Source of the DNA: Bemisia tabaci
Lineage: Eukaryota > Arthropoda > Insecta > Hemiptera > Aleyrodidae
Length of the DNA: 64,000 bases
Assembly (NCBI RefSeq): GCF_918797505.1
Contig: NC_092793.1
Location: 71,419,660 to 71,483,659, forward strand
Direction: 5' to 3'
Shown here: positions 11,432 through 54,847 of the stretch, piece after piece
Layout of the letters: each line of letters begins with the position of its first letter
Numbering within the stretch: position 1 is the first letter of the stretch
Translations under genes and position numbers: made by a program
Notes under the pieces: model-generated
The model's input: only the letters and a program-made list of their open reading frames with translations
What the model was told of the DNA's origin: nothing
The model's database searches: none

Positions 11432-12996
11432 TTGTTATAGTATTGAGCTTACTGATTGTATAGGGTAGGGAGGGGGGAGGGGCTCTTGACATGTGTCATA
11501 GTCTCATTTATGGGTTTCTCTTGTACAAATGTTCGCAAATATAAATTGAAATATTTCAGAGTTTCTCTCTCCCTCTCACTCCTCTTGATCTGCCTCCCTC
11601 CTCCCTTTCAATCGATCAATGGTTAAATATACACTCATCTGTCTTTCAAATGTTCAATTCACTCTGGTATGTTTAAGATATACTTACGCTGAAAGTAAGT
11701 AGATCGAAATCGGAATTTTCAAAATTTTTCATCGCGGATTTTGATAGGCCACACTGATGGGTGGAATCGAGAAGTACTTACATACTTACAGTTACGACAT
11801 CGCGTGCATGCCTACGTTCGTATTTCATTTATTTAAACAGATACTTCTTGATATTTTGTGTTAAAACTTCCTCAGAATTTTGTTGCATGTCAGGAGATAA
11901 TTTCCAAAAATTTCGGGTTTAAATAAAAAAAATGTTATTGTCTATATGAAAAATAAAGAAGTAATTTTGGAAACAGGACGGTGATGTTGCACTTTTGTTG
12001 CTTTTAACCACCAATATCAATTAAATATTCAAATTCATAAACTGACTCCGTCTGATGTAGCAATCTTCAGTGTTTATCTTGCAATTTTGTGATTATCAGG
12101 GTCCAGGGACTATGAATACTCAAATAATTTGCAAGGAAAACACTTTAGTTCCAATTCACACAGCCTGTAACGACGAGACAAAGGAAAAAAGAAAGAATTC
12201 AGTCTTTTAAGTTTTGAATTATATCTATAGGAGAATTTTAAAACGAGCAGATTCAAAGGTTCCATAGAATTGTATCATTTTGTCGCACACGATCACATCA
12301 ACTTCGATGAAATTAGAACGCATACTTTAGAGTCGCATACAGTAACGTCATTTGGTGTTGAAATCTTGGAGAGAAAGTAAGAAGAAGAGTGGCGAACTTG
12401 AATTTTACCGGTTCAATGCTTAGAAATGAACTACGGAGACTCAAAATATGCGAAATTCAATTGTTTTAAAACTATTTGTGAGCGATTATATGATACTATG
12501 ATCCGAGTCCAATTTCACTCTCGTAAAATTTGAATTGTTGAGAACGAACAAGGTGAACATCTTTCGGCGGAACGATATTGATATTTAGTGCATGTGATAA
12601 CCGCGAGGTCTCTGAAATTTAGCAGAAATTTGACAGCAGCGATACTCATCGCAATGAAACTTTTTCTCCTCCCACCGAGTGGATTTATGCGTTTTTTCAT
12701 CCAGATTGATACCGCAATGATTCATGTTGATAGGTTTTTGGGTTGTGCACATGCTCGAATTTCCTCGGTTTTGGTATTCGAGTGGGTTTAAGGAGAGAGC
12801 GGGCGGAGAACAAGCGAGTAAAGGGGTCCAACAGAAAAGAAAGCGCTTCCCCAGAAAAGTTTCACATAACTTTTTCCCGGTATGACTGGTGCTATTAGAT
12901 TGACTGAAGAGCCAGACATTGCAACTATCTTTTATAATGCATCATTTTTGGTTGTGTAATTATTTTGATTTTCTTCAGTTTCGGTATGAAAAATAT
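11432..12996. other. AT-rich intronic sequence, no gene seen
   Basis: No coding signature, structural RNA or clear repeat was recognised in these 1.5 kb. Confidence 0.45.
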
Positions 12997-14547
12997 CAGG
13001 GTTCCCAGCTAATTTTGGAAAAAAAATCCCTGACTTTTCCAGGTTTTCCAGGCCAAAATGAAAATATATCCAGGCCTTTTTCCGTGGAAAAAACTCAAAT
13101 AATTTGCCCTAAAAGAGACAGCGCGCGCATTTTTCGGTTTTTGTAAAAACTCCTCTATTTTCATCAATTTTTGATCTGGTTCAGCTTTTTTTTTTATAAG
13201 AACCAGGCTAGGATAGTATCATAACACGAATGAAATCACAAAAAAACTTAAAATGTGTTGGAAAAAAAAATTGGCGAAATATAAACGCCTTCTTAAACGA
13301 TACATGCATTGGTGAAAGCAAATGATTTTTCAATTTGTTTCATTTACTCATAGTAGTATTGGATTTGAAAAATAAATCCCATCATGGTATTGCTGCTATG
13401 CTAAGGAAAAGAGCACTGAACAGATTCTTTTAAAAAATAATCCAACCTGCAGTCTTCGTTCTGCAGACTATTAAGAACTATTCTTAAAAAAACTGAGAAA
13501 TGCATATATATTTTTTTAAATGAGCGTATTGTCCACGGAAAAAAGGCAGAGTTACAAAAAAAATAACCTCTACCTTAGCATGCAGACATAGTTCTCAGCT
13601 AAGCGCAAGATATCCTAGTGAGTGTACTTGAAACTTTTACATTGAAGATTGAGGGTTACCCGATCGAAGAGCATAGGCGTAGCTAGGTCATTTTGCTAGG
13701 GGGGCCTGGCCTCCCACCACCAGGGGGTCTGGAGGGTATGGAATACCCCCCAGCTCAGGGGGGACTTCGGGGGGCCTCCCCTGGACAATTTTTGAAATTT
13801 TAACTCTACTTGAGCGCATCTCGAGGCACTTGTGGCGCTAATCTTCCTTCAATTTCTGCCTAAAAATCACCCAGTTTTATGCATTTTAAGGTTCCGGAAA
13901 ATTTTTGAAATTTTAACTCTACTTGAGCGCATCTCGAGGCACTTGTGGCGCTAATCTTCCTTCAATTTCTGCCTAAAAATCACCCAGTTTTTTACATTTT
14001 AAGGTTAAAATACTTTGAAATTGTTGCATTCAACAGGTTTTTCTATTTTTAGGCATCCTCTCACGGGCCACGGCGACAGAGACTTACCGTTGAAGAAGGT
14101 CTTTTTGCAACATCCAGAATTTCTGAGGGGGGCAGATGATACTATTTCAAATTCTAGGGGGGGCCAGGCCCCCCCCTTCCTACGCCTCTGTCGAAGAGGA
14201 GTAGCTAGCTCCTGCGATCTCTTATTTCATTAGACGCAACCAGTCGCACAAGATGCCCCCATCATTATGGCTGACCTGCACGGGGAGCCACCGAACACTC
14301 CCGAGTAGTTCCGATTCGTTCCGAATGCCGATAAAGAGGATGAGTTGGCGGAAAATTCAAAATACAACGAAGGAATTGCAATTTCAATTTTAATTCTTTT
14401 ATTTTTATTTGTTTACTTATTAAATTTTTTTTCTCAGTACTTGAAAAAATTCCAGACTTTTGGAGCAAATTCCCTGACTTTTCCATGTTTTCCAGGCCAT
14501 TTTTTTCCCCTGACTTTTCCAGGTTTTCCAGATAGCTGGGAACCCTG
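12997..14547. mobile_element. hAT-like non-autonomous element, CAGGGTTCCCAGCTA ends
   Basis: Terminal inverted repeats CAGGGTTCCCAGCTA and TAGCTGGGAACCCTG bound 1.55 kb. Both ends carry several CCCTGACTTTTCCAGG and TTTTCCAGGCC motifs. CAGGGTTCCC termini are typical of hAT elements. The interior holds a second, nested element at 13,672-14,190. No transposase remains. The 8-bp target duplication is not clear (AAAAATAT against AATTTATG). Confidence 0.75.
13672..14190. mobile_element. Nested hAT-like MITE with perfect 8-bp TSD
   Basis: A 519-bp element with ends CATAGGCGTAG and CTACGCCTCTG, flanked on both sides by the direct repeat TCGAAGAG (13,664-13,671 and 14,191-14,198). Inner subterminal blocks CTAGGGGGGCCTGGCC and GGCCAGGCCCCCCC are inverted. 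The interior contains a 113-bp tandem duplication starting at about 13,788 and 13,901. An 8-bp duplication places it with hAT-type insertions. Confidence 0.85.
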
Positions 14548-14559
14548 AATTTATGCCGT

Positions 14560-14640
14560 GAGCCCTGTAATGCGCATACACTTATGGGTCTCAGGACTCA
14601 TGTCTTAATGCACATAGTTCCGTTTGGTAGAAATACGTTC
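14560..14640 (+). repeat. Partial MITE end, ACATAGTTCCGTTTGG
   Basis: Right half of the family seen complete at 17,067-17,190: GTGAGCCCTGTAATG, then CTTAATGCACATAGTTCCG and TAGAAATACGTTCA. Confidence 0.55.
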
Positions 14641-14721
14641 ATTTTGTCATTCCCTGGCGAATCCTACTTTTTCCCTGTCTTAGACAGCGGACCGCAGTCT
14701 TCAATAATCGGCCGTTTCAAT

Positions 14722-14795
14722 CAATAGGATCGCTATATTTTTTCTTAGTCTTCTTTATCTTTAACTTTGTCGATCAATTGCAATGATCAGGCCAT
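14722..14795 (+). repeat. Dispersed repeat end (ATCGCT..TCTTCTTT..CAATT)
   Basis: Resembles the block at 54,508-54,577 and the right arm of 63,598-63,874: a pattern of ATCGCTCCAT, TCTTCTTTGTCT, then ATCAATTTCAA. Confidence 0.5.
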
Positions 14796-14908
14796 TGCCG
14801 GTCATATTTCTATAAAAAATCGAATTCCTTGATCAATTTTCCAACCTTGAAACGAGCTTACGTCCCTCCATCAAAGGATCGACGAATCAAGACATTATCA
14901 CGCATCAA

Positions 14909-15033
14909 ATCGTCGCTCCTCCGACGAAAAGACACATCTCAATTTCCACGTGAGCTTTATTTTCCATACAAATCCATGCTTCCAAGACTCATGCGGAAAT
15001 TGTTATACGCCCATACGTCAAAGGAGCGACGAA
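14909..15033. mobile_element. Palindromic MITE, CGTCGCTCCTCCGACG copy 1
   Basis: CGTCGCTCCTCCGACGAAAA is mirrored by TCAAAGGAGCGACG. Further copies occur at 20,393-20,510 and 20,929-21,049, with the shared interior CACGTGAGC..ATCCATGCTT. Confidence 0.65.
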
Positions 15034-15395
15034 ATGACGGTCGACGTCTATGACGATCTGGCAAGGCGGGAGCCCAGGATGCTGCGTACGAGATGAGGAT
15101 GAGATGAATGGCTATAGGTGAAAGCATCTCTTCATCGAGGCGGTCATGGCATCGTGCATTCGAGGATTCGTGTCGGCGCAATTGCCCTTTCGGGGAAATG
15201 CATCCTGATCATCTTGATTGAGACGCATCGGATGCTCGGGTCCGAGAGGATTTCACAAAGCACAATCCAGGCAACATGACAATAGGACATTGAATCCAAG
15301 TCCTAGTGTCTAATTCTGTCGTGCTAAGGGAGAACGTCGTAAGAGCCTTCAGACGCTGCCAAGTTTCTTCTGATAAAAACCGGATTGGGTCAGTT

Positions 15396-15650
15396 CTGCC
15401 GTAATAAGGAAAAACGCCGTATGAACATTCGAGAGTTGTCAAATTTCCTCTCAGAAAATAGTTATTTTTGAAGAAAGGTATGAATCTATCTCCTTGAAAT
15501 TTTCAGGAACCGCAGGTGGAGTTGAGAACAAAATTATCGGAAAAATCGGAAGGAAAATCTTTACAAATTTTCCAGAAAACTGGTGATTTGCCGTAAGAAA
15601 TTTGGCAACGCCTGAATGTTCATACGGCGTTCTTCCTAAGCACGGCAGAG
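15396..15650. mobile_element. MITE, TGCCGTAATAAGGAAAAACG ends
   Basis: The left end CTGCCGTAATAAGGAAAAAC, then GCCGTATGAACATTCGAG, is mirrored by GAATGTTCATACGGCG and TTCTTCCTAAGCACGGCAG. The same family occurs at 16,490-16,682, 54,602-54,847 and 57,513-57,770, with a decayed end at 15,317-15,370. This is one of the repeats I associate with whitefly. Confidence 0.75.
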
Positions 15651-15707
15651 TTGCGATGGTCACAGAATCGTGTTTCGATGCTTGATTCTTGTAGATCAGC
15701 TAAAAAT

Positions 15708-16143
15708 TAGAGTCCCTTTATACCCAGAGTTAAGACAACTCGATTATCAGCTGACTGGCAGCCGGCCTTGGCTGGCCATGGAGGCCGAAACGAGTGCACC
15801 CAAACGAACGATATTAAGGGATGAGGATCAGGAATCCTGGGATGTCTGTCACACAAAAACAACAACATCAACAAATTGATCAATTAAAAAGAAAATGAGA
15901 TTGGTTTGTGAATAATTTCTTAATCTATTTTCATTTTGGACCGATGGAAATAAAAATTTACTCTTGATAAACCCAATTAGGTAATATTTTCATTATTCTT
16001 TTTCACATTCGAGGTACCGCCATCTTGGTGCACTCGTTTCGGCCTCCATGAGCGAGAACCAATCTGAATTGGATTTTTTTTTAGGCCACTTTCAGCCCAA
16101 CCAAAAGTGAGTTGTCTTAACTCTGGGTATAAAGGGACTCTAC
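15708..16143. mobile_element. MITE, TAGAGTCCCTTTATACCCAG ends
   Basis: TAGAGTCCCTTTATACCCAG and AGTTAAGACAACTC are mirrored at the right end (GAGTTGTCTTAACTC, TATAAAGGGACTCTA). An inner pair around GGAGGCCGAAACGAGTGCAC is also inverted. A relative lies at 30,109-30,576. Confidence 0.75.
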
Positions 16144-16212
16144 TAAAAATAATACCATCCAAACTCTCTACGTTCAATATTAGCCGAGATATCGCCTTTT
16201 AAAAAGCCGGAT

Positions 16213-16360
16213 TTTGACGTCATCCACCACGGTGGTGACACCCTTGGTTTCTTCCACCTCGCTTTTATCAGTCAGTGATGCACTGGTTACTCAGCGTGAT
16301 ACTTGGATGAAAGCAAGGTGAAAAAACCAAGGGTGTCACCACCGCGATGGATGACATCAA
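16213..16360. mobile_element. Palindromic MITE, CACCACGGTGGTGACACCC
   Basis: ATCCACCACGGTGGTGACAC and CCTTGGTTT are mirrored by AAACCAAGG and GTGTCACCACCGCGATGGAT. About 148 bp. Confidence 0.6.
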
Positions 16361-16489
16361 AAACCTGTCTTCAAAGGGCGATATCTCTGTTAATATTGAA
16401 CGTAGAAAGTTGCTGTTTGGACGGATCTTATTATTTTTAGCTGACCCACAAGAATTCAAGCATAAAACCACGATTTTGTGACCAACGCA

Positions 16490-16682
16490 ACTGAACCATT
16501 TACCGGGAAAATTGTGAATATTTTCCCCCGAAATTTTCAGACGATTTTGCACGCAATTTAATGTAAATATCTGAAATTTTAAAGGAAAAATAAGCATAAA
16601 TGTCGTAAAAAATACATGCTTTATCAAGGGAAACTTGGCAACTCTCGAATTTTCGTGCAGCGTTCTTCCTTAGCACGGCAGA
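16490..16682. mobile_element. Truncated MITE of the CACGGCAG family
   Basis: The right end, TTGGCAACTCTCGAATTTTC and GTTCTTCCTTAGCACGGCAG, is intact. The left end is missing or replaced. Same family as 15,396-15,650. Confidence 0.6.
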
Positions 16683-17066
16683 ATTCAAGCCGAGCCGATT
16701 ACAATCAAGAAATGCCTTGAAGGAGTGGATTCTAGATTTTTCCTATGTGATTTATGTTGTTTTTGAGTCATTTAAACACTTGAATTCATATGTGATGCAC
16801 CCGTGGCAAGGGTTCGTGACGACCCACACCTACGCAAAAGAGGGAGGCACGCTTGTAATGAAAAAATTTTTCGGGGGGGGGGGGGGGTGTGAAGGTAAGT
16901 GACATCTAGGACAAAGGGAGAAGGAGAGGTCAAAGGTCGGGAAAAATGGGTTCTGTAATTCATGGACGAACCCGCACTACTTTTCAGCAAAAAAAGGAAA
17001 GTTGTGAAAAGTGAGAGATGAATTAATCCGGGAAATCCAGGTACCCTCATTAATTCTTGTAATAAT

Positions 17067-17190
17067 TGGACGTATTTCTATCAAACGGAACTACGTGCAT
17101 TATGACGTGAGCCCTGTTATGGACATATTCGTATGGGTCTAAGGGCTAATGTCTTAACGCACATAGTTCCGTTTGATAGAAATACATCCA
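17067..17190. mobile_element. Palindromic MITE, GGACGTATTTCTATCAAACG
   Basis: GGACGTATTTCTATCAAACG with GAACTACGTGCATTA is mirrored by TAACGCACATAGTTCCG and TTTGATAGAAATAC. 124 bp. Partial copies at 14,560 and 52,129-52,506 share the tip. Confidence 0.7.
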
Positions 17191-17473
17191 ATTAGTTTTC
17201 AGTTCAATGAAGACATTTTCTTTTGTGAGCTTGCACTGACCTTTCACCTGGGAAACCCGAAAAGTAGGGATATTTTGGAAATCGAAGCCACTCTTTTGTT
17301 TTCGAGAACAACAAGGAAAACTTTGGAGACCTCGAGGGCTCGGAACTTCTGGAACTTTGGTCAGTCGAAGTCGCGCAGCCGTAGGGGTTGAGCTTGAGCG
17401 TAGAGGATAATCAAATCGGAAGTATATTTTATCGGAAATATATTCATCTCGGGACCGCGTGTGATAGTCGTGT

Positions 17474-17497
17474 TATTTAAGTGCATTACCATCAGTG
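17474..17497 (+). promoter_or_regulatory. Possible core promoter (TATTTAA and TCAGTG initiator)
   Basis: TATTTAA at 17,474 and an arthropod-type initiator TCAGTG at 17,492 precede the candidate first exon. The spacing (about 18 bp) is shorter than a normal TATA-initiator distance, so this is weak support. Confidence 0.2.
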
Positions 17498-17855
17498 TAG
17501 TTTCGTGTTCGGTATAGTTCGTGTTCGTATAGTTTCGTGTTCGGTACTTTATTATTAAAATTTTTCTCTGTGAATTATTTCGTGAATATAGAAGGTGCAG
17601 TGAATAGTTGAACAACCTTACTTTTCGCAACTTTTCTATCCGCCGAAAGTTTTAGTCTGCAAGCCTCTACTTTTTCCGTCCAGTGCGATAGTTTGCCGTG
17701 TTTTACAATAAGTGGAAGTAGTATTTGTCACTCGTGTCGGTTGTCATCGTGCGAATTTTCGGTAGTGTCTTTTCAGTGATATTTCTGTGAAATTTGATTT
17801 GAGGATATCGTTTCGGAAGTCAATTTGCTCACGTGTATTCCTCAGCGTTGATTCG
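17492..17855 (+). other. Candidate 5' UTR exon of a nested plus-strand gene
   Basis: About 360 bp with the texture of an insect 5' UTR: short GTTTCGTGTTCGGT repeats, no transposon ends and no long frame. It ends in a good donor (ATTCG|GTAAGT at 17,856). It would splice to the candidate exon at 19,458. The transcription start is a guess. It lies antisense inside the Beat intron. It could instead be ordinary intron with a chance donor. Confidence 0.3.
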
Positions 17856-18038
17856 GTAAGTCGCTTGATGTCATCAACAAAATGTTTTTTTTTTCTTCTT
17901 TTTTTTACGAGAGAAGTGTGGTTGCATTTAATATCGGTGACTTAAGTGTGAAACCACGTATTTCCAGTAAACTTTATGCTATCATTTTATTTTTCGAGGA
18001 AAATTAAGTCGACTGTTTGGCTTGATATCTTTACAGAA

Positions 18039-18266
18039 CACTGAAAAAAAACACACTGGATCTAGAGTCCAGACTCTTGAAAACATTGACAAGAAAAAAT
18101 ACTCTTGATTCAATCGGATTTTTGCTTGAATCAAAACGAAATCCGCTTAAATTAAGGAGCTTGGTTTTTAATTTAAGTTAGATTCTGATTGAATCAAGAG
18201 TACTTTTTCTTGTTGATGTTTTTTTAAGAGTCTGGACTCTAGATCCAATGTGTTTTTTTTCCCGTG
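18039..18266. mobile_element. Foldback MITE, CACTGGAAAA..CACATTGGATC copy 1
   Basis: 228 bp with long inverted arms: CACTGAAAAAAAACACACTG, GGATCTAGAGTCCAGACTCT and AAATACTCTTGATTCAATC are mirrored on the right. Copies lie at 59,215, 61,496 and 62,419, and a relative at 47,506. No transposase. Confidence 0.8.
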
Positions 18267-18285
18267 AATATTTTGCTAAAAGAGA

Positions 18286-18420
18286 GGAAAAATCGAGGTA
18301 GTTTTCAAGAATGAGTTGACTAGTTTTACTAAGAAAGAATAAAGTGCAACAGGAGGTCCGGGACGTCGCAGACGGAGATAGGTGGTTTCGCACTTCGGCC
18401 ATCGATATATAATTTGAGAA
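18286..18420. repeat. Partial copy of the GACGTCGCAGAC repeat
   Basis: AAAATCGAGGTAGTTTTC, GACGTCGCAGACGGAG and TTCGGCCATCGATAT match blocks at 46,490-46,625 and, loosely, the complete element at 56,163-56,424. A second fragment sits at 18,690-18,775. Confidence 0.45.
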
Positions 18421-18792
18421 TCCCTGTGGGCGATAATCTTTTGATTTTCTCGAGATTTTTTTCACAAACAGTGGAGTTATCGAGGTATTCAGCGTATTGA
18501 AATGTGTTGCAATTTTTTGCATTTGCGAAGTACCTAACTTCTTCATAAATCGATGGCCAAAGTGGAAAATCATGCATTTCTATTGTGGTGTCATAAAATT
18601 TCCACCTTTATTTTATTTTTTCGAAGAGAAACAAGCAAACTTCATAGCTTGAAATTTATACAAAGTATTCTGCAAACATTGAAAAAAAATCACGGAAGTT
18701 TTAAAGAAATTAGGTAGACCAGTTCCCCCGAGAAAAAATGAAGTATGACAGAAAATCTGTTGAGTAGCAGACGGAAACGCGTGTTTCTACAC

Positions 18793-19240
18793 TTAAGGTG
18801 ATTCGATGGACGCGATACTTTGTGTCAGAACGGCATGCGATATATCGCATCAATTGGTTCCATTTTTTCAGCTACTCGTCATTTTTCTCCAATTTTGAGA
18901 TCGCGATTCTGTTGTCAGGAGACTAAAGCACTCGCTTACCAATTTTAACAAAGAAATTCAACGTAATAAAGGCGTGGTTTTTTTAGAGCGAAAACATCGC
19001 ATTCGATACTGATATCGAAACTGCACTTGAATGCGATATTTTCTCTCTAAAAAAACCACGCCTTTATTACGTTGAATTTCTTTGTTAAAATTGGTAAGCG
19101 AGTGCTTTAGTCTCCTGACAACAGAATTGCGATCTCAAAATTGGAGAGGGATGACGAGTAGCTGAAAAAATGGAACCAATGGATGCGATATATCGCATGC
19201 CTTTCTGACATTAAATATGGCATCCATCAAATCTCCTTAA
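18793..19240. mobile_element. Palindromic MITE bounded by TTAA, copy 1
   Basis: TTAAGGTGATTCGATGGACG is mirrored by CATCAAATCTCCTTAA. The whole 448 bp folds into a near-perfect hairpin (for example GAGACTAAAGCACTCGCTTA and its mirror). TTAA lies at both edges, as in piggyBac-type insertions. Copy 2 is at 19,583-20,009. Confidence 0.75.
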
Positions 19241-19457
19241 GTCGTCGATATGAAAATGTTTAATCGTTGAAAATTGATTATTATTGAATACATTATGTGA
19301 GAATATTGTAATTTCGTGGTAAAAAAAAACAGTTTTATTCCATTATTTTTCAACATTATTTCAATTTATTTGTTAAGCTGTTCCATATACTAGACAATGT
19401 GCAACAATGCGTTACGTTGAATTTATCTCTAAAAGGGTTTAATTTTTTTCTTTGCAG

Positions 19458-19548
19458 CCAACATTCGAGAAGGGGATGAACGAGGATGGAAATCCTCACC
19501 CTCCGCATCAGAGCTGTTCCTGACCTTGCAGATCATCGCTCCTTCACG
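19458..19548 (+). CDS. Candidate exon 2 of a nested plus-strand gene
   Basis: A strong acceptor (poly-T, CTTTGCAG at 19,450-19,457) and a donor (ACG|GTAAGA at 19,549) bound 91 bp. Two readings are possible. (a) An ATG at 19,486 with a good start context (A at -3, G at +4) opens MEILTLRIRAV, then PDLADHRSFT, ending in phase 0. An overlapping 15-codon upstream frame begins at 19,476. (b) A fully open third frame reads NIREGDERGWKSSPSASE, then LFLTLQIIAPSR, as an internal exon. I recognise neither peptide. It sits between two MITE copies. No following plus-strand exon was found in the window. Confidence 0.35.
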
Positions 19549-19582
19549 GTAAGATCTCTCAAGCCTCCTCCTATTTCGAAAA

Positions 19583-20009
19583 TTAAGGTGATTCGATGAA
19601 CGCCATATTTTGTGACAGAACGGCAAGCGATATATAGCATCGATTAGTTCCATTTTTCCGGCGACTCGTCATTTTTCTCGAATTTTGAGATCGCAATTCT
19701 ATTGTCAGGAGACTAAATAATTCACTTACCAATTTTGATGAACAAATTCAAAGTATTAAAGGCGTGAGGAAAATAGAGGAAAAATACTGCATTCGAATGG
19801 GATATTTTGTCTCATAAAAAAAACCCACGACTTCATTACGATGAAATTGTTTGTCAAAATTTGGTAGGTGAATTCTTTAGTCTCCTGACAACAGAATTGA
19901 GATCTCAAAATTCGAAAAAATGACGAGTAGCTGAAAAAATGAAACTAATCGACGCGATATTTCGCATGTCGTTCTGGCACAAAATATGGCGTTCATCGAA
20001 TCACCTCAA
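19583..20009. mobile_element. Palindromic MITE bounded by TTAA/TCAA, copy 2
   Basis: TTAAGGTGATTCGATGAACG is mirrored by GTTCATCGAATCACCTCAA. It has the same internal hairpin as 18,793-19,240 with more mismatches. Confidence 0.75.
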
Positions 20010-20392
20010 CTTCTGATGAATCGGTTACTGTCAATAATTTCAGTTTTTGAAATGGGCTGCTAAAATATTTGAGGGGCTTGGAGGACAAGGTGCATAAGTG
20101 CAGTTTTGGAAAAAGTTAAGATTTTAATGATTTCAAGTAAAACTAGTCTTAGTGCATAATTTGTGAAAAATTCCCTCTCAAATTCCAATTTTTAAGCTTC
20201 AAAAAGTCAGTTTGAACTTTCTTTCCGCCATAAGGATCCATGTAAATCTCAAAACTTCAAACACATATTTCTCGAGGTAGCAAAAACTGCACTTAAGCGC
20301 TTAGTTCTACAAGCCCCTCATTCTTCCTCAACGCTGATCATCACCGCTGTCATCATTCGGGCGATTTTAGATAGAATCAACTTAATTACATT

Positions 20393-20510
20393 TCGTCGCT
20401 CCTCTGACGTAAGGGCGTAACTTGATTTCTACGTGACCCCTGTGCTCCGTATAACTCTATGCTTTCTAAGGCTCATGCAAAAATTTAGATACGCCCTTAC
20501 GTCAGAGGAC
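20393..20510. mobile_element. Palindromic MITE, CGTCGCTCCTCTGACG copy 2
   Basis: CGTCGCTCCTCTGACGTAAG with GGCGTA is mirrored by TACGCCCTTACGTCAGAGGA. The right tip is shortened. Confidence 0.65.
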
Positions 20511-20561
20511 ATTTTCCTTTACAAATTCAAATTTACGAGGCGAAATCTGGCAACAATGAGA

Positions 20562-20699
20562 TGGACCACATTTTGCAAAAAGGAACCACTATTTCTGGCT
20601 CATTTTAGAAACAACGTATATGCCATTGGTTTCCCTGTGCAGAACGGTGGTTTTATGGAAGAGTCAGAAATAGTGGTTCCTTATTGCAAAATGTAATCC
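20562..20699. mobile_element. Palindromic MITE, TGGACTGCATTTTGCAA family copy 1
   Basis: ATGGACCACATTTTGCAAAA, then GGAACCACTATTTCTGGCTC, is mirrored by AGTCAGAAATAGTGGTTCC and TTGCAAAATGTAATCCA. Sisters lie at 20,738, 23,721, 24,154, 27,431 and 50,166, with an enlarged one at 32,391. Confidence 0.75.
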
Positions 20700-20737
20700 A
20701 AATGTAGTTATGTTCTTTCGTGGGAGGTAACGACGAA

Positions 20738-20879
20738 TTGGACTGCATTTTGCAATTTGGAACTATAAATTCTGGCTCATCTGAAAAAAACACTTATGTG
20801 CATAGGAATACTAATGGCACATGCGTTTTTTTTAAACCGGGCCAGAATTTATGGTTCCAAATTGCAAAATGCAGTCCAA
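20738..20879. mobile_element. Palindromic MITE, TGGACTGCATTTTGCAA family copy 2
   Basis: TTGGACTGCATTTTGCAATT..GGAACTATAAATTCTGGC is mirrored by GCCAGAATTTATGGTTCC and TTGCAAAATGCAGTCCAA. Confidence 0.8.
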
Positions 20880-20928
20880 TTGAGGGAGGAAAATAGATTA
20901 AAAAGCCTCCCAATGAGTGGCCCCGTTT

Positions 20929-21049
20929 CGTCGCTCCTCTGACGAAAGGGCGAATCTCAATTTCCTCGTGAGCCCTGGGTCACATTCAAATCCATGCTTT
21001 CTGCGGTTCATGTGAAAAGTGGGATACGTCCTAATGTCACAGGAGCGAC
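20929..21049. mobile_element. Palindromic MITE, CGTCGCTCCTCTGACG copy 3
   Basis: CGTCGCTCCTCTGACGAAAG is mirrored by GTCACAGGAGCGAC. The interior CCTCGTGAGCCC..ATCCATGCTTTC is shared with the other copies. Confidence 0.65.
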
Positions 21050-21113
21050 CTTTTTTGAAACCCGGGGAATTCATTCGTACGTGACCGAAATGAAACCTTA
21101 TGATGAGACAAGC

Positions 21114-23479
21114 CTCCGGTAAAAATTTTAGCTTGAGGATACGTTTGGTTTTGGACAGTGGCGTGGCGTGGATTGCGATGTATCGATTCTCATGCCATTT
21201 AAAGCTTTGGTAAAGAATCGATTATTAAGGTGTTCGCTGCGAACACCCTGTCTATCGATCCTTTTTCATAGGTTTAAATGGCATGACAATCGATACATCG
21301 CAATTCACGCCACGCCATTGGTTTTGGAGCTACAGCGTTGCAAAGTTTGCATGTTTGAGTCTTAAAAATCTTCATATTTTTGAAGAATTTCTTCCAAAAG
21401 CCAATTTCAAAGTAATGTCAGTAACAAGTAATGTAAGTTTTAAACATGACGCGTAACTGAAAAATTATAAGAAAATCCGTAGTAAAAGTTTCAAATTGTG
21501 GATGAGCCGTTAATAGCAGTACAACGTTGCAAAAATTACATTCTTGTCCTTTAAAAATACCCATTTTTTATAGTTTTGTATATTGTAGCAGTATTTGAGA
21601 CATAAAATATACAATTAGAGATACTCGCAGACTCATAGTAAAATTTATATCAGTATACGATAATTTTAGGCAATGCAGCGTTGCAAAGTTTAGACGTATA
21701 GCATAGATTTAATCAGTATACGATAATTTTGGGCAATACAGCGTTGCAAAGTTTACATCTTTCATCTATGAAAATGTCTACTTTTTCTTGTTATTGTATT
21801 GGAGACAAGATACAATATGTGTCAATGGTTAATAGTGTGAAGCGAAATGTGGAGGCTTTATGTTGATCCTGGGTGACAATTGCATTAAAATAACATCGTT
21901 GCAAATTTTATCTGCTTTTCTTTTAACATTCGATTGTATAAAATTAGTTAAAAATAAGGATACTTCCAATAGTTATTTTACTTTAAAATGTAATTCCAGA
22001 GGATTTTTGGAATACAATGGATGATTCAGCATCAGCGTTGCTTTCAAGATCTGAAATATTCTGCCTAGACTTAGTTGCAAATTCAACCTTTTTTAGGTGT
22101 AATGAAGAAACTAACATAGAATATGGAGGCGTTTGGGTTTTTTTAAGTAGAAATAAATCTTGATACAGACGATACATTCATTATGCCTTAAAAAACTGAG
22201 TATGTTGAACGTAAGAATGGAAGATTTTGAAAATATTAAAGAAAAAAAAAAGAAAAAAAAATGCAAAGTAAATTAAATGAACGAAAAATAATAAATACAC
22301 CAACAAAACAATAAAATATAATTTAAAACCTAAATAGAATATTTAAATCACTGTTGCGTTAATGTATAAAAAACCCAGACGCCTCCTTAAGAGAGAATTT
22401 TAAAATTATTTAAATATGACTTTTGGAGGGTGAAAGTTTAAAATTGGCATCATGTTGAGGCGTTTTCTATAGATTTGAAGGCAAGACAGGACTGATACTG
22501 AAGCATCACATGAATAAAATATTTTGAAGGAAGAAGATAAAAAACTATAAAAAATACAAAAATAAAAAAAAATGAAAAATAATGTACGGTAGAAAGTCAT
22601 ATAAAAATGAAAGAAAAAAATGTCAATGTAAATAAAAAAATAAGCAAAATCAAATAACTACCTACTGGAAGCATCTTTATTTTAAAATCTTCTATTATTT
22701 ATTGCTTGGAGAGAATTGTGAATAAACTTGGCGAAAGTATTATTGCAAAAACCAATTGTCACTTGGAACAGACATCAGACCTTGATATTTTGGATTGATA
22801 TGAGGGATGATACCCATTGATTTTATCTTAAACTGGAAAAAAAAATTTTAAAAAAAAATCATATTTCGTTGAGTTCAAAATTGTAAGCTTGGCAACGCTG
22901 TATCACTACAAATCAATCTTACATCTGCAGATAACGTTAATGGTTTATTTCATAAAAAAAAAAACCAAAAAAAAACCAAAAAAAACAAAAAACAAACAAA
23001 CACTGAACTTAAAATTAAAAACATTTTTAAAGCTTATATACATAAATTTGGCAACGCTGTATCGTTAAATCTATACTTACACTCGCGGTAAAACTTTTAC
23101 ACAAGACTAATCTTATCATAGAATTTCAGCTAAACCACATTATCATACCTTTAGGTGGTCAATAAGTTCGTTTTTTAATTCAAAAACGGAACAAAATGAG
23201 CATTTTTATGGGTCTGTGATGTCAAGTTTGCAACGTTGTATCAACAGAATTAACAGCATTAACGTAGAAAAATTATTTATTATTAACGTATTTTTTTAGA
23301 AAAATGTACACTGACTGTTGATAAAATGTCTCAAAATATCATGAAACATCCAATGACAGTTGTTTACAGAAAGTAAGATACTTGATAATACGATAATCTT
23401 TAAAGCTTAAATATGGAAACTTGTCAACGCTGTATTTCTAAAACCAGACGTATCCTCAAGCTAAGATTTTTACTGGAGA
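21114..23479. mobile_element. Non-autonomous DNA element with arrayed subterminal repeats
   Basis: The ends CTCCGGTAAAAATTTTAGC and TTGAGGATACGT are mirrored by ACGTATCCTCAAGCTAAG and TTTTTACTGGAG. Inside, the motif ACAGCGTTGCAAAGTTT recurs at about 21,332, 21,522, 21,666, 21,736 and 21,895. It returns inverted (GGCAACGCTGTA and variants) at about 22,893, 23,047, 23,226 and 23,425. The core is very A-rich and codes for nothing. Such mirrored subterminal arrays are usually transposase-binding sites. An inner inverted pair (GGAGGCGTTTGGGTTTTTT at 22,126 and its mirror ending at 22,386) may be another insertion. Confidence 0.7.
21156..21320. mobile_element. hAT-like MITE, CAGTGGCGTGGCGTG, with 8-bp TSD
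   Basis: 165 bp with ends CAGTGGCGTGGCGTG and CACGCCACGCCATTG, flanked by the perfect direct repeat GTTTTGGA (21,148-21,155 and 21,321-21,328). Most of its length is palindromic. It interrupts the left end of the 21,114-23,479 element, so it is the younger insertion. Confidence 0.85.
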
Positions 23480-23720
23480 CATGGGTCATCATAGAGCAAA
23501 GTAACAATATGTAACAATTTTGGATGATTATTCATGAATTTCCAGAGTGCCTCGTGTCTTTGGAAGAATTTTTGACGAGCCGGGGTCTAAAAGTGCGTCG
23601 TGGTGGAAATTAACTGTTAAACCTTGTTAGGTTATCGACTGCTTTACTTCCTTCTTGCCTTCAATCTGGTGAAGATTGAGCAGAGAGCGCCGAGAGCGGT
23701 CTGAGTCAACGTTACTTAAT

Positions 23721-23861
23721 TTGAACTAAATTTTGCAATTCGGAGCTACAATTTCTGGCTCATCTATAAAAACACTTATGTGCATATGATACTATGAGTA
23801 CTTACGTTGTTTCTAAACTTGAGACACAAATTTTAGTGCTCAATTGCAAAATGCAGTCCAT
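23721..23861. mobile_element. Palindromic MITE, TGGACTGCATTTTGCAA family copy 3
   Basis: TTTTGCAATTCGGAGCTACA and TTTCTGGCTC are mirrored with more decay by TTTTAGTGCTCAATTGC and AAAATGCAGTCCA. Confidence 0.65.
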
Positions 23862-24153
23862 TTGTGTGTGGATCTGTGTAAAAAGAGCCTCTCCTCCGGG
23901 AGAAAATTGTTCTTAACTTTTTGCGAACACATGAACAACATTTTTCTACAACCTAGGAATTTTTGTCTTCAAGCTTCACGACAGTTTTTGAGATTTAGGA
24001 TCAAATTTCCTGAGTAAAGGAATTTTGTCCTCAGAAAGATAGGTCTCTTCTTACAGATCTGGTCACTGGTAAAAGGGGCCCGGCATATTGTTATGAAAGG
24101 TAGCTTCCACATGAATAATAAGTTTTCCTCCGCTCCAATAGCCTCCAGACTCA

Positions 24154-24297
24154 TTTGGACCACATTTTGCAATTGGGAACTATAATTTCTGACTCAGTTT
24201 AGAAATAACTTATGAGCCATTAGTTTCCCGATGCACGAAAGTGTTTTTAAGGATGAGCCAGAAATTTTAGTTCCTAATTGCAAAATGTAGTCCATTT
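24154..24297. mobile_element. Palindromic MITE, TGGACTGCATTTTGCAA family copy 4
   Basis: TTTGGACCACATTTTGCAAT is mirrored by ATTGCAAAATGTAGTCCA. Interior as in the other copies. Confidence 0.75.
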
Positions 24298-24408
24298 AAC
24301 CCTCGTCTGTCACATATAAGTAGAACTGACCAGACGTTTAAATGTAAAACTTGTCTCCCGTACGAAGGAATGTAACTCCATTCCAAGGTCACCAAATTGA
24401 CTCAAACA

Positions 24409-24473
24409 ATTAATTTATTTTACAAAGTTATGCCTGTGCAATTTTCAGGCACAACTTTGTAAAACAAATTAAT
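24409..24473. repeat. Compact 65-nt hairpin (pre-miRNA-like or tiny MITE)
   Basis: A 28-base arm beginning ATTAATTTATTTTACAAAG pairs with the arm ending CTTTGTAAAACAAATTAAT around a 9-base loop, with only two mismatched positions. Part of the motif (GTGCCTGTGTAATTTT) is repeated just downstream. Confidence 0.45.
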
Positions 24474-25144
24474 GAAAATGTGCCTGTGTAATTTTTATTT
24501 TAATTTTGCATGAAATCTCGGGGAAAATTATCAATGAAATTTCCAGTTAGGAAAGTTCAAGATCCTCCTACTTAATATGCAATTTGCGAGGGGACATTTG
24601 GCAACATTGAAATGAAGTTACGTTCTTTCACGCGGGAAAACGATGAGCTCTCTTAAGTTTAGTTTTACTGTGCCGAGGCAAGTGAACCACCAAAACTTTC
24701 ATTATTGCTATACTAGAGGTTGTTTTGCAAAACGAAAAAAATTCCGCCTGAGGTTACTGTTTTACGACTAATATTTAGAATCTGTCTTGGTCAATTTTGC
24801 TCTTTCAATGATAATTTGTATTGAAAGTGTTAATTTACAACATTATAGTAGTAGTTTTTGTGTAATTTTTGGTTTGTTGGGTAGCCAGTGCTATGGGTTA
24901 AAATAAACTGTTAGCTCACGTTAACTTGAAATTCAGGAACTTAATAGTCGAAGCTTTTCGGCCTCAGCCGTCGTCAGGACTTAGCAAAAAGCACAGTTTG
25001 AGACAATAAATGATTAATTTTGATTAATATCAGTTCATACATATGATGAACGAGTGTGTTTCGGTGTAGATGTGTTTCATTGAGTTTTTTATTGATTCAA
25101 CGATATTTCTACCGGAATAAATGATGAAAAATGGACGGCTCGTG

Positions 25145-25309
25145 CAGTGGCGTGGCGTGCTTTGCGATATATCGGTTTATCGGCCATTTAAACCTATGGA
25201 AAAGGATCGATAAACAGGGTGTTCGTAGCGAACACCTTAATAATCGATTTTTTACCATGGATTTAAATGGCATAACAATCGATACATCGCAATTCACGCC
25301 ACGCCACTG
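25145..25309. mobile_element. hAT-like MITE, CAGTGGCGTGGCGTG family copy 2
   Basis: Ends CAGTGGCGTGGCGTG and CACGCCACGCCACTG, in the opposite orientation to 21,156. The flanks GGCTCGTG and GGATCGCG match at 6 of 8 positions, consistent with an aged 8-bp duplication. Confidence 0.8.
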
Positions 25310-25616
25310 GGATCGCGAGTTCTTCTGTCCTCAGGACTTTTGTCTAGGAATGAGATTCTTGATTATAAATAAGATGTTCAACATTTTTCTACTGCTCACC
25401 ATTTTGAGACTTTTCCTAACTTCGAATGAAGTGACCGAATCACTTCCTTCGTCAATTCTCTGTCTCGGTGACGGAGTATGCGTTTGTCTTCTGAAGCACT
25501 GTCAGAAGTCTATTACTGGCTACTAGATTCCCTGGGGATCAAATAGACTATATTCTACGATAAAAAAAACTACCATTTACGGCTCATTCGTGAAAGTACC
25601 TCTTCGTATAGGGTAA

Positions 25617-26056
25617 AATCAAAGTTTGAGGAGAGGGAGAAGAATAGAAATAGGAGGAAGAAGATAAGAGAAAGAACAGGAAGAAAAGAGAGAAGAGAGG
25701 AGAGAAAAGGAGAGACATGGGAGAAGAAGAAGAGAAGAATAGAGAGAACATAAAAGAGAATAAAATAGTGAAAGCACACAGTAAAACAGTGAGAGGGAAA
25801 GCGAGAAGGAAATTGAGAAGGAAAGCGAAAAGGAAATTGAGAAGGAAAGCGAGAAGGAAAGCGAGAAGGAAAGCGAGAAGGAAAGCGAGGAAAAGCGAGA
25901 AGAAACGTGAGAAGAAAATCGAGGGGAAAAGCGAGAAGGAAAGCGAGAAGGAAAGCAAGAGGAAAAGCGAGAAGAAAAGTGAGAAGAAATTCGAGAGGAA
26001 AAGCGAGAAGAAAAGTGAGAAGAAATTCGAGAGGAAACGTGAGAAGAGAGAGAAAA
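25617..26056 (+). repeat. Polypurine microsatellite (GAGAAGGAAAGC)n
   Basis: About 440 bp, nearly all purine on the plus strand, with a 10-12 bp unit such as GAGAAGGAAAGC. The long lysine/arginine or serine/phenylalanine frames across it are artefacts of the repeat. It stops exactly where the P1 strand of the first ribozyme begins. Confidence 0.85.
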
Positions 26057-26123
26057 GGGTCTGGTGCCGGAGCCTCCTCGTGGTGGACCTGGGGCGGGTC
26101 TCTGACCCGTGCCAAACGCCGGC
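26057..26123 (+). ncRNA. HDV-like self-cleaving ribozyme, copy 1
   Basis: Folds as the nested double pseudoknot of HDV-like ribozymes. P1 is GGGTCTG (26,057-26,063) with TGGACCT (26,084-26,090), seven pairs of which three are G-U wobbles. P2 is GCCGG (26,066-26,070) with CCGGC (26,119-26,123). P3/L3 is CCTCCTCGTGG (26,073-26,083). P4 is CGGGT/ACCCG (26,095-26,109). J4/2 is GCCAAAC, carrying the expected catalytic cytosine. Copy 2 at 27,268 keeps the L3 core and spacing but has different, still paired, P1, P2 and P4. Known relatives sit at the 5' end of insect non-LTR retrotransposons such as R2 and RTE and cleave just before P1, here before G26,057. Activity is inferred. Confidence 0.8.
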
Positions 26124-26161
26124 AAACTGTTGTGATTCTGCACCCTCCCTCGCCTCTGGTT

Positions 26162-26210
26162 GTTAGCCCATATCTCTTCACACATCGTAACGAGCAATTT
26201 AGGATCAAGC
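26162..26210 (+). ncRNA. Stem-loop motif GTTAGCCCATATC, unit 1 of 5
   Basis: GTTAGCCCATATC is followed by a variable loop and GGATCAAGC. The ATC/GAT closing pairs are kept and the loop is the longest of the five. No family recognised. Confidence 0.5.
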
Positions 26211-26238
26211 GCATCCTTGGTACGTTATTACCTTGGTT

Positions 26239-26278
26239 GTTAGCCCATATCCCTAATACGCTCGGGCATGGATCAACC
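26239..26278 (+). ncRNA. Stem-loop motif GTTAGCCCATATC, unit 2 of 5
   Basis: GTTAGCCCATATCC ... GGATCAACC, with an outer GGTTG/CAACC stem. A strong hairpin CCCTGCT/AGCAGGG follows at 26,291-26,312. The 40 bases CCTTGGTACGTTATTACC to CCATATCCCT around its start recur at unit 4, 153 bp downstream. Confidence 0.55.
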
Positions 26279-26329
26279 ACTTCCTCGGTGCCCTGCTTCG
26301 CGCGCAGCAGGGCTGTTTACACCTTGGAT

Positions 26330-26363
26330 GTTAGGCCATATCCATTGCAGCCTTGGATCAAGC
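26330..26363 (+). ncRNA. Stem-loop motif GTTAGGCCATATC, unit 3 of 5
   Basis: GTTAGGCCATATCCA ... TGGATCAAGC; the ATCCA/TGGAT stem closes a 9-base loop. Confidence 0.55.
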
Positions 26364-26391
26364 GGAACCTTGGTACGTTATTACCTTGGTT

Positions 26392-26428
26392 GTTAGCCCA
26401 TATCCCTGGTTTACGGAAGAGATCAAGC
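26392..26428 (+). ncRNA. Stem-loop motif GTTAGCCCATATC, unit 4 of 5
   Basis: GTTAGCCCATATCC ... GATCAAGCGG, with an outer GGTT/AACC pairing. The upstream 40 bases duplicate those before unit 2. Confidence 0.55.
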
Positions 26429-26467
26429 GGAACCTTAGGAACATGAGGGGAACGATGATCTTCAGAG

Positions 26468-26536
26468 GACCACTGATAGTAGTTAGGCCATATCCTTGAA
26501 CCGCGAGGTGCAAGGATCAACCGGTACACAGTGGTC
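26468..26536 (+). ncRNA. Stem-loop motif GTTAGGCCATATC, unit 5 of 5, inside an outer stem
   Basis: The motif at 26,482-26,522 (GTTAGGCCATATCCTTG ... CAAGGATCAACC) folds into a 7-bp ATCCTTG/CAAGGAT helix. A three-pair ACC/GGT helix capped by a GCGA tetraloop tops it. The whole is enclosed by an 8-bp GACCACTG/CAGTGGTC stem. It is the clearest fold of the five. Confidence 0.6.
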
Positions 26537-27109
26537 TGAAAATCCCGATCTGTGACCGACTTTGCGCGATTCGCCAGTGACCAATTGCAGGGGTGACCGA
26601 TCGAAGCCTGGCGATCCTGTTCTGGTCAACCTCCGGTATCTGCCGATGCTTGCGCATTAAGTCTAAAGCCGTCATCCCCCCCGGGACACTTTAGACCAGG
26701 CAAAGTCGGAACCGGAGGGTCGGACGCCTCTCAAACGGGCTGGTGGTTGGGGCGATGTTGCAGATTGAAGTAGGTTTTGATGCAGGACGAGCCGAATACT
26801 TCACGAGAGTCCCGGGGTCTCGTGGCTCAGGGTATTCTGTTTGACCTGGGCCGAACAAGCCGGACAAAGTTTCAGCAATCTCTATCTCTGTAGAGAGTAT
26901 CCAGCTACGAGTTTGTTGTCTCACTGCTGGATCGCACGGTGGTAGAGGAGTTCCCTGCATTCGGTCATTGGCGAATTGTTCACTGTTGTGAGTGAGGGTG
27001 CGCCCAGAACGCCAACCCAACTCTTCATGGCATGAGATCTTTAATAATTATTAAATTTTAAAAAAAAAAAAATTAAAAATAAGGTTATCCTTATTAAATC
27101 TCACTAACA

Positions 27110-27136
27110 ACAAAGGCATGAGCCCCATGCCTTTGT
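27110..27136 (+). terminator. Perfect 11-bp hairpin followed by T-rich DNA
   Basis: ACAAAGGCATG / CATGCCTTTGT around the loop AGCCC, then TCTTTT. It lies just after the A-rich tail of the ribozyme-headed unit, so it may be a 3' structure or a Pol III-type stop. Function is inferred. Confidence 0.35.
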
Positions 27137-27267
27137 CTTTTAAATTTCTTCTCCATTTTTCAAAATTTCTTCTCCATTTTTTCAAAATTTCTTCAAAATT
27201 TCTTCAAAATTTTGAATTTCAAATTAACGTATGCCATGGGAGTTGTAAGTTGGACGGTGGAAGCGTG

Positions 27268-27337
27268 CCGTCTGATGTCGGTTCCTCCTCGTGGTGGACG
27301 GTGGAAACGAGGGTTTCACCCTCGGCTAAACGCCGAC
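27268..27337 (+). ncRNA. HDV-like self-cleaving ribozyme, copy 2
   Basis: P1 is CCGTCTG (27,268-27,274) with TGGACGG (27,295-27,301). P2 is GTCGG (27,277-27,281) with CCGAC (27,333-27,337). P3/L3 is CCTCCTCGTGG (27,284-27,294), identical to copy 1. P4 is CGAGGG/CCCTCG (27,308-27,324). J4/2 is GCTAAAC with the expected cytosine at 27,326. The P1-to-P1' offset (27 bases) equals that of copy 1. An upstream TGGACGGTGG at 27,251-27,260 could compete for P1, a possible off-state. Cleavage is predicted before C27,268. Confidence 0.82.
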
Positions 27338-27420
27338 AAAATTGGTGCTAGTTTTGGTAGTAATACACAGGGGTCGATACTTCAGTCTATTTGATGTTTC
27401 ATGACCCCTGGTAGCACCTT
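27338..27420 (+). mobile_element. Short remnant downstream of ribozyme 2
   Basis: GGTGCTAG ... TAGCACC and CAGGGGTC ... GACCCCTG inverted pairs close a hairpin over the 70-odd bases after the ribozyme. It is probably a 5'-truncated-in-body copy of a ribozyme-headed element. A MITE starts right after it. Confidence 0.35.
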
Positions 27421-27430
27421 CTTCAGATGA

Positions 27431-27572
27431 ATAGGACTGCATTTTGCAATTTGGAGCTATAAATTCTGGATCATCTGAAAAAACACTTATGTGCATAGGG
27501 AAACTAATGTCACATATGTCATTTTTAAACCAGGCTAGAATTTATAGTTCCAAATTGAAAAATGTAGTCCAA
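27431..27572. mobile_element. Palindromic MITE, TGGACTGCATTTTGCAA family copy 5
   Basis: ATAGGACTGCATTTTGCAAT..GGAGCTATAAATTCTGG is mirrored by CTAGAATTTATAGTTCC and AAAAATGTAGTCCAAT. Confidence 0.75.
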
Positions 27573-27883
27573 TACATCTTTGACTTATAGTTTTTGACCA
27601 TTCTCACGATTTCTATAACTTATTCATTCATCTTATTGATTTCTATAATATATTTCGGGAGACAAATAATTATATGCCTAGAAAAAACACAGATGATTAA
27701 CAAATAAAATATCAGAACACATGAATTAGAGCATCTTAGCTTTTTCATCAATACGATTTTGATTTTGGGGCTAAAATGCTCCTTTCTCAGATATAATTTT
27801 AGAAGTTTTGCAGTGACGAGCGTCCAAAGATTTGCCATTGATTTTGCGTAGAAATAATTTATCAATTGATCGAGATTTAATCT

Positions 27884-28010
27884 GTTGGAGAAGAGGAGGA
27901 AGAGAAAGATAAAGTAGTAGAGAGAGAGGAGCAGAAAAAAAGAGAGAAGAAAAGAAGGTAAGGAAAATGAAGGAGGAGAGAGAGGAGAAAAATGAGGAGA
28001 AAGGTGTAAT
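27884..28010 (+). repeat. Polypurine (GA-rich) tract
   Basis: About 125 bp of AGAGGAGGAAGAGAAAG-like sequence, almost free of pyrimidines. It is a minus-strand Ser/Leu frame artefact, not a gene. Confidence 0.7.
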
Positions 28011-28410
28011 ATTGTGTTAAAGCTATCAAACAATCATGAATATAAAACATTTTATCGGGAAGTTATCCTGCCATCCATGAAACACTACTGGAACATGTGT
28101 CGTTGAATATAGACCCTTCTTTCGTGACGATTATTGGTGCACTTCAATCATGTTTTTTTTGTTTATTTTTTTTTTACGGTACAAAACCCAGATTGATAGA
28201 ACCAACCAAGTTTACACAGCCGCACTAACATAAGATTTTGACGTTGCCAAATTTCTCCGATAAAATATTCATTTTTGAGGGAAGCTATGGGAGAGTGTCA
28301 CGCATTGTGAAGTCACTGAAATCCATACAGAACAGAAACATCTTGAATCGGTCCAATGTCCATTTTTCAGAGCGCATGGAGAGCACCCAATGGGAGGGTG
28401 GATGGATGTA

Positions 28411-50165: not shown

Positions 50166-50310
50166 GGCCTACACCTTGCAATTGGGAGCTTCTATTTCTG
50201 GCTCAGTCTAGAAGCAACCTATGTATCATTAGTTTCCCTCCACAAATAAGCGTTATTACAGATGAGCCAATAATTGTAGTTCTAATAAATTGCGAAATGT
50301 AGTCCATTTA
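50166..50310. mobile_element. Palindromic MITE, TGGACTGCATTTTGCAA family copy 6
   Basis: GGCCTACACCTTGCAATTGG..GAGCTTCTATTTCTGGCTC is mirrored by GATGAGCCAATAATTGTAG and TTGCGAAATGTAGTCCAT. More decayed than the others. Confidence 0.7.
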
Positions 50311-54601: not shown

Positions 54602-54847
54602 CTGCCGTGGTAAGGAGGAACGCCCTAAGAACATTTGAGAGTTGCCAAATTTACCCGGATAAACATGTAATTTATAGGAAAAAATGCATACATCTTCATA
54701 CAATTTTCAAATATTTTAGAAAGAATTGTGTACAAAATTGTCTGAAAATTTTGAAGAAAAGTATCCCCCCCAGTAAATTATTTTTCTATTTAAAGAAATA
54801 TGGCAACGTCTCAGGGCTCATACGACGTTTTTCCTCAGCGCGGCAGT
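54602..54847. mobile_element. MITE, CTGCCGTGGTAAGGAGGAACG
   Basis: ACTGCCGTGGTAAGGAGGAA and GAGAGTTGCCAAATTT are mirrored by ATATGGCAACGTCTCAG, TCATACGACG and TTTTTCCTCAGCGCGGCAGT. Family of 15,396-15,650. Confidence 0.75.

Follow-up and report, generated by a model that had tools for sequence, protein, structure and literature searches.

Genomic self-cleaving ribozymes are mainly known, as outlined in PMC7761336 and PMC3774820, as trimmers of retrotransposon 5' ends or as the hammerhead pairs of retrozymes. In the description given by PMC7761336, retrozymes carry their hammerheads in direct repeats of ~350 bp in plants or in tandem repeats in animals. The 1.2-kb unit analyzed here resembles LTR and non-LTR retrozymes in having a non-coding RNA between two same-strand self-cleaving motifs within a mobile repeat, from which a defined RNA could be excised; it differs from retrozymes as portrayed in that source by its HDV fold, its two diverged ribozymes, the lack of direct repeats, and its position within a ~15-kb element. 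The unit is not a member of the retrozymes; their layout is its nearest analogue, and it is retrozyme-like in its two same-strand cuts if the ribozymes are active. R2 and other non-LTR retrotransposons use the same ribozyme fold, whereas R2, according to PMC3774820, has one ribozyme at the 5' end of the element, and the two of the present element lie 13-14 kb in from its 5' end. Unlike an R2-type element, the element described here has no frame long enough for a reverse transcriptase. Deltavirus-like circular RNAs likewise combine HDV-type ribozymes with a compact self-paired RNA; as PMC7761336 presents them, theirs is one ribozyme per polarity of an infectious circle, whereas here both lie on one strand of a genomic repeat.

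The window, which is the whole 64-kb stretch of Bemisia tabaci DNA that we analyzed, carries two HDV-like ribozymes on its + strand, ribozyme 1 (rz1) at 26057-26128 and ribozyme 2 (rz2) at 27267-27338. Neither was reported by an Rfam scan at the gathering score. When 1,801 bases were scanned at a relaxed threshold, rz2 (27267-27337) matched HDV-F-prausnitzii (RF02682) with 29.7 bits, below the cut-off of 44 (E 0.0043), and rz1 was absent at E up to 5; hammerheads were found at neither threshold. A covariance model built from both ribozyme types, which are thus in its training set, returned two matches only in the 64-kb window, at 26057-26126 (82.8 bits) and 27267-27340 (100.8 bits).

Aligned with each other, rz1 and rz2 have in common the HDV topology, a nested double pseudoknot of 23 pairs comprising P1, P2, P3, and P4, pseudoknot included. 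The paired cells of this alignment reached 95.5%, compared with 37-52% in slid controls; P2 and P4 were paired at 100%, and P3 was weak (77.8%), the first P3 pair of rz2 being U.U. The HDV fold is supported by six base pairs (one in P1, one in P2, and four in P4) in which both partners differ from one ribozyme to the other; these represent one divergence between two types and not many events. By eye, both ribozymes show GG for P1.1, UCCUCGU as loop 3, a cytosine in J4/2, and, closing the base of P1, a G.U pair. The latter sets the predicted cleavage sites between 26056 and 26057 and between 27266 and 27267 and hence a predicted product of 1,210 nt. The first-pass annotation had proposed two same-strand ribozymes around this segment, and by predicted structure we consider both confirmed in the window.

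We searched 610 Mb of genome with a pattern for this ribozyme type and obtained 224 matches, compared with 2 for the reversed pattern, which shows that the occurrence is not a matter of chance. Typing and pairing covered the first 100 of the 224 matches as listed, of which 46 were rz1, 49 were rz2, and 5 were others. Every one of the 46 rz1 among the matches listed is followed by a same-strand rz2 within 3.5 kb, at a distance of 974-1,315 nt in 42 of them and of 1,609-3,478 nt in the other four. Conversely, the pattern finds no rz1 for 3 of the 49 rz2 among the matches listed; one of the three (C2:7811730, L070) does possess an rz1 with one change in loop 3. The pair thus recurs genome-wide, and the contrary outcome named beforehand, two ribozymes that never co-occur elsewhere, was not seen. 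The release of a defined RNA, also part of the first-pass annotation, is made plausible by this recurrence in 46/46 rz1 among the matches listed, with a predicted length of 1,210 nt instead of the 1,211 nt given there.

The 20 fetched copies were drawn from the 22 perfect rz1 matches found besides the window, so that rz1 identity among them is biased. The covariance model, applied to 27 sources, counted exactly one rz1 and one rz2 in the window and in 19 of the 20 fetched copies, rz1 only in L009, which already stops matching the window at 26346, rz2 only in L059, a 762-bp derivative, and none in five upstream pieces. No further ribozymes were found in the 27 sources at E up to 1, giving at most two per copy and no tandem units. 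A first look yielded 114 candidates genome-wide, and the genome would hold about a hundred similar copies of the unit if the unlisted matches behave like those listed. Same-orientation units were also seen 24-65 kb apart (C1:6188746/6213063, C1:74522603/74582348, C2:9555005/9589375, and C3:3327112/3392562), which may reflect local duplication or a larger structure.

Between the two ribozymes, the + strand carries a GC-richer structured RNA body (26129-27030) and an AT-rich spacer preceding rz2 (27031-27266). The GC content per 100 nt over 26000-26999 was 0.46-0.57 compared with 0.397 for the window, and 26057-27027 folded with an MFE of -377 kcal/mol (z -3.3 versus 20 shuffles). In the consensus fold, the ends of the unit are predicted to pair with each other. 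At 27110-27136 (+) lies an 11-bp hairpin, CAAAGGCATG...CATGCCTTTG, with a fold z of -5.7, and ~27011-27262 is missing in L013, L014, L026, and L060, leaving a ~979-nt unit. Copies of the unit differ by 1-nt indels. These break its frames, so the unit was rejected as a coding sequence, and the segment between the ribozymes is unlikely to be coding. The earlier description of a protein-free, GC-rich, and structured segment agrees with these measurements.

The region 26157-26497 (+) contains a 21-nt motif, TGGTTGTTAGSCCATATCCCT, in five dispersed copies (starting at 26157, 26234, 26325, 26387, and 26477), mostly followed by GGATCAASCGG. The motif had no match in the relaxed Rfam scan. Its candidacy as a covarying hairpin was rejected, as four of the five repeats fold no better than shuffles and the variable bases, by eye, do not covary; the last repeat does fold beyond shuffles (z -4.9). 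Across the body, 15 of 25 substitutions were pair-compatible versus 12.7 expected, with two double changes, and variable columns were not depleted in stems (24/577 versus 17/302, p 0.32); covariation within the body thus did not exceed expectation, and the body fold does not rely on it.

The unit is not itself the mobile element: it is embedded close to the 3' terminus of a ~15-kb multicopy repeat that lacks long ORFs. The whole mobile element in the window, a copy of type B, spans 12997-28006 on the + strand, starts with CAGGGTTCCCAGC, and ends with ...GAGGAGAAAGGTG. Purine-repeat frames excepted, no stop-to-stop frame in 12997-28006 exceeds 133 aa; a full reverse-transcriptase element, which the first-pass annotation had named as an outcome speaking against it, was accordingly not seen, since no frame there is long enough. 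Pfam gave no match for four other frames of the window, a tRNA scan found none, and in IMG/VR two DNA patterns had no relatives and the frame from 53955-54650 no confirmed one. Directly 5' of rz1 lie purine-rich GAGAAGGAAAGC-type repeats (25633-26056, +), in place of which L009, L014, and L017 have other purine repeats. The type-B 3' tail (27339-28006, +) ends in a purine-rich microsatellite, and type A has a different 3' end instead.

Upstream of the unit, the match to the window reaches 24603 or beyond in 16 of the 20 copies, in most of them to the end of the fetched sequence, and stops at 25655 in L009, 25844 in L014, 26040 in L017, and 25575 in L020. Among the copies followed further, L022 stops matching at 16620, and L016 and L025 reach 12992/12997. 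Because copy homology extends upstream past rz1, the ends of the unit are not insertion ends. The 5' start of the element is CAGGGTTCCCAGC at 12997, with flanks that are unrelated between copies. Eleven further 5' ends were fetched, ten of which start with CAGGGTTCCCAGC (four with one change), and L049 is without the first 28 nt. A covariance-model search found no ribozyme of this type at the element 5' end (12997).

At the 3' side, the copies fall into two types. Type A comprises 9 of the 20 copies (L011, L015, L016, L018, L019, and L023-L026), which leave the window sequence at ~27359-27369, end with ...GGGAACCCTG, and have 13-bp terminal inverted repeats (TIRs), CAGGGTTCCCAGC/GCTGGGAACCCTG. 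For 11 type-A elements with both flanks, we found exact 5-bp target duplications in 6, duplications of 4-6 bp in 8, and none in 3; mismatched flank pairings gave exact duplications in 0/110 and 4 or more bp in 1/110. Because of these target duplications (6/11 exact versus 0/110 in the control), the type-A copies look like a TIR DNA transposon. Type B (the window, L010, L012, L013, L020, L021, L022, L027, and L028) has the tail present after 27433 and ends with ...GAGAAAGGT in 7/9, L022 and L027 stopping earlier. Terminal inverted repeats are absent from the window type-B copy, the 3' end of which is GAGAAAGGTG and not GGGAACCCTG. Five-bp duplications occur at an offset of 1-2 nt, with extra 3'-end bases, in 2/3 type-B copies (control 0/6). 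By flank comparison, the candidate duplication in the window is AATAT (left copy at 12992-12996; right copy at 28008-28012, a single base past ...GGTG), L021 has ATATC, and the third copy (L065/L066) has none. The target duplications lie at the ends of the larger element and not around the unit, past which copy homology runs on.

The tail of the window copy contains a MITE-like small inverted-repeat insertion at 27434-27570 (69-nt arms, 77% complementary) that is absent from the eight other fetched type-B copies. It has relatives in the window at ~20732-20880, 23721-23872, 24155-24297, and 50164-50310, and it gave weak microRNA-family matches below the cut-off in the relaxed Rfam scan. At four loci (L060-L063), another element 5' start (CAGGGTTCCC, once GAGGGTTCCC) comes immediately after the type-B 3' end (AAAGGTGA, once AAAGGTAA); these may be insertions in head-to-tail tandem or derived from circles. 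In L060/L069, the sequence resembles the window from 12997 up to ~14495. At 14393-14547, the element contains an internal copy of the type-A 3' end, and 12997-14547 taken by itself resembles a complete ~1.55-kb TIR element, so that the large element may be composite.

The family resembles large non-autonomous TIR DNA transposons in the 13-bp TIRs (CAGGGTTCCCAGC) and ~5-bp target duplications of type A and in having a short derivative (L059), and is unlike them in the different 3' end of type B. We take the element termini to be hAT-like. To our knowledge, no large non-autonomous TIR DNA transposon carries a ribozyme-bracketed RNA unit, and no description of an HDV-ribozyme pair in a DNA transposon was found by title or abstract start in the open-access PMC literature.

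Conservation was assessed over a 24-row alignment (20 rows not chosen on rz2 and 4 from an rz2 search; gaps uncounted and L020 misaligned at rz1). Pi was 0.0045 in rz2; body segments gave 0-0.026, the spacer gave 0.030-0.038, and 27339-27369 gave 0.10, a value that mixes 3'-end types. Within types A and B, substitutions relative to the window amounted to 0.4-1.7% in the body, 0-3.6% over 20.5-25.7 kb, and 2.0-11.1% over 16-20 kb, the last range and part of the second coming from 2-4 copies. The unit therefore evolves only modestly more slowly than 20.5-25.7 kb within these types. Altered ribozymes were seen in L070 (the loop-3 change in rz1) and L059 (a P2 change in rz2), and stem changes in two rz2 among the matches listed (C3:6749397 and C1:10618529).

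The unit is also found behind a second kind of upstream segment. Upstream of rz1, L009, L014, and L017 share with the window element purine repeats and pieces of the type-B tail only. Type-B-tail-like pieces (~27721-28002) lie 5' of rz1 at ~1187-1453 in L009, ~428-524 in L014, and ~795-879 in L017 (rz1 on +), so that the order of segments differs between the backbones. A first look placed the L017 upstream segment at 35 sites in the genome, each of which was scored. Of the 18 sites on C1-C4, for which the list of ribozymes is complete, 17 precede a same-strand rz1 by ~0.6-2.2 kb (by eye), and the remaining one, C2:13629020, has no rz1 listed. In L009 and L014, the segment is present in diverged form (77-79%).

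Compared with the window, L017 is 97-98% identical in the body, 97.2% in rz2, and 95.5% over the aligned part of the spacer (198/236 positions), and its 100% identity in rz1 reflects how the copies were selected; past rz2, identity is 82.2% and then 89.8% in the next two stretches. L014 is 98-99% identical in the body and 98.6% in rz2, then 85.4% and 86.0%; its rz1 is 100% by selection, and 23/236 spacer positions align. The sharp edges of the unit rest on these two copies, both picked for a perfect rz1. CTAATCGCC is found in rz2 of many second-backbone copies (16/49 rz2 among the matches listed, by eye), and L014 rz2 has CTAAACGCC. The sharing of the unit between backbones could stem from recent exchange and not from a function.

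A predicted hairpin (27249-27276, +, -12.7 kcal/mol) spans the rz2 cleavage site and competes with P1; its upstream part is a near-repeat of GGACGGTGGAARCG. The 15 nt directly 5' of the cut are a near-repeat of rz2's own GGACGGTGGAAACG and pair with the P1 5' strand in an 11-bp hairpin. The sequence of this hairpin is identical in 22 of 29 distinct loci (23 of 30 rows, L037 and L063 being the same locus; -12.7 kcal/mol). L017 has another loop (-10.7 kcal/mol), and the hairpin is weaker in L020 (-7.6 kcal/mol) and in five loci without the spacer (-4.3 to -7.5 kcal/mol). HDV ribozyme folding can be helped or hindered by flanking sequence, as discussed in PMC3774820. The predicted hairpin may block or regulate the second cut, so that RNA release may be conditional or rz2 may be poor, and it counts against a simple two-cut picture.

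Our preferred reading, to which we give an even chance, is that the 1.2-kb unit is an RNA cassette whose ends the ribozymes define and which is borne by a large family of non-coding transposons. We favor it because the ribozymes are paired in 46/46 listed rz1, occur behind two upstream kinds, and bound the block in L017 and L014. Supporting observations are the presence of both ribozymes, their co-occurrence across the genome, and a similar block in the second backbone that coincides with the two. Possible, if somewhat unlikely, is that ribozyme-headed non-LTR relics were captured once inside the transposon and spread by hitchhiking, with ribozymes that are idle for the element. Such relics could explain the purine microsatellites that lie 5' of rz1 and end the rz2 tail, as retroelement 3' tails might; the element has spread in its entirety, rz2 may be silenced by the hairpin at its cleavage site, and ribozymes are altered in a few copies. 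Since these insertions are young, their low divergence requires no selection and is compatible with hitchhiking. Captured relics are, however, harder to reconcile with the similar block in L017 and L014 that stops at the ribozymes, with the unit's presence behind a second kind of upstream segment, with the 46/46 rz1 among the matches listed that have kept their partner, and with the rz2 differences in fetched copies, which lie mostly in the P4 loop, J4/2, or flank.

We consider it very improbable that the unit replicates via a circular RNA that is reverse-transcribed and inserted and in this way reached two backbones. In its favor are the same-strand ribozyme pair with structured RNA between and a unit that is 95.5-100% identical in copies with unrelated upstream sequence. 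Yet the ribozymes are without surrounding direct repeats (30 nt at 87% in common only), the purine repeats always lie 5' of rz1 in the 20 fetched copies, 16 of which match the window to 24603 or beyond, and tandem units were absent from the sources searched. With no hammerhead either, and unit ends that are not insertion ends, the retrozyme reading was not supported. Slighter still is the chance that two independent non-autonomous retroelements lie head to tail here, each of them opened by a ribozyme at its 5' end and closed by a microsatellite, the simpler alternative offered by the first-pass annotation. Rz2 plus its tail (27267-28006) resembles such an element, and purine repeats precede rz1, but type-A copies carry rz2 with a different 3' end, and lone rz2 make up 3/49 among the matches listed, one of them with the loop-3-changed rz1 (L070). 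This alternative is further weakened by the fact that no rz1 without rz2 occurs among the matches listed; L009 lacks rz2, with a match that ends at 26346.

According to the cassette reading, the element would be transcribed, and rz1 would free a 5' end with a 5'-OH and rz2 a 3' end with a 2',3'-cyclic phosphate. The product would be a compact RNA of ~1-1.2 kb, the ends of which are predicted to pair together. Ends of the 5'-OH and 2',3'-cyclic phosphate kind suit RtcB-type ligation, by which the excised RNA may be circularized. The hairpin at the rz2 cleavage site would slow the second cut or make it conditional. Once released, the RNA would most likely serve the element in trans, our guess being protein binding, or else protecting and exporting the element's RNA. 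The fullest version of this proposal is doubtful and, as a whole, quite unlikely: a DNA transposon family that encodes an excisable, probably circular ~1-kb RNA acting in trans, with a conserved HDV-like pair and a delay switch on the second ribozyme, the cassette moving or being homogenized between backbones as a unit.

If true, an HDV pair inside DNA-transposon-like elements would be a third use of genomic self-cleaving ribozymes and would naturally supply RNAs that are defined and possibly circular. The cleavage-site hairpin is a concrete candidate for a switch, and given roughly a hundred similar copies in a single genome, cleavage, circularity, and expression would be directly testable.
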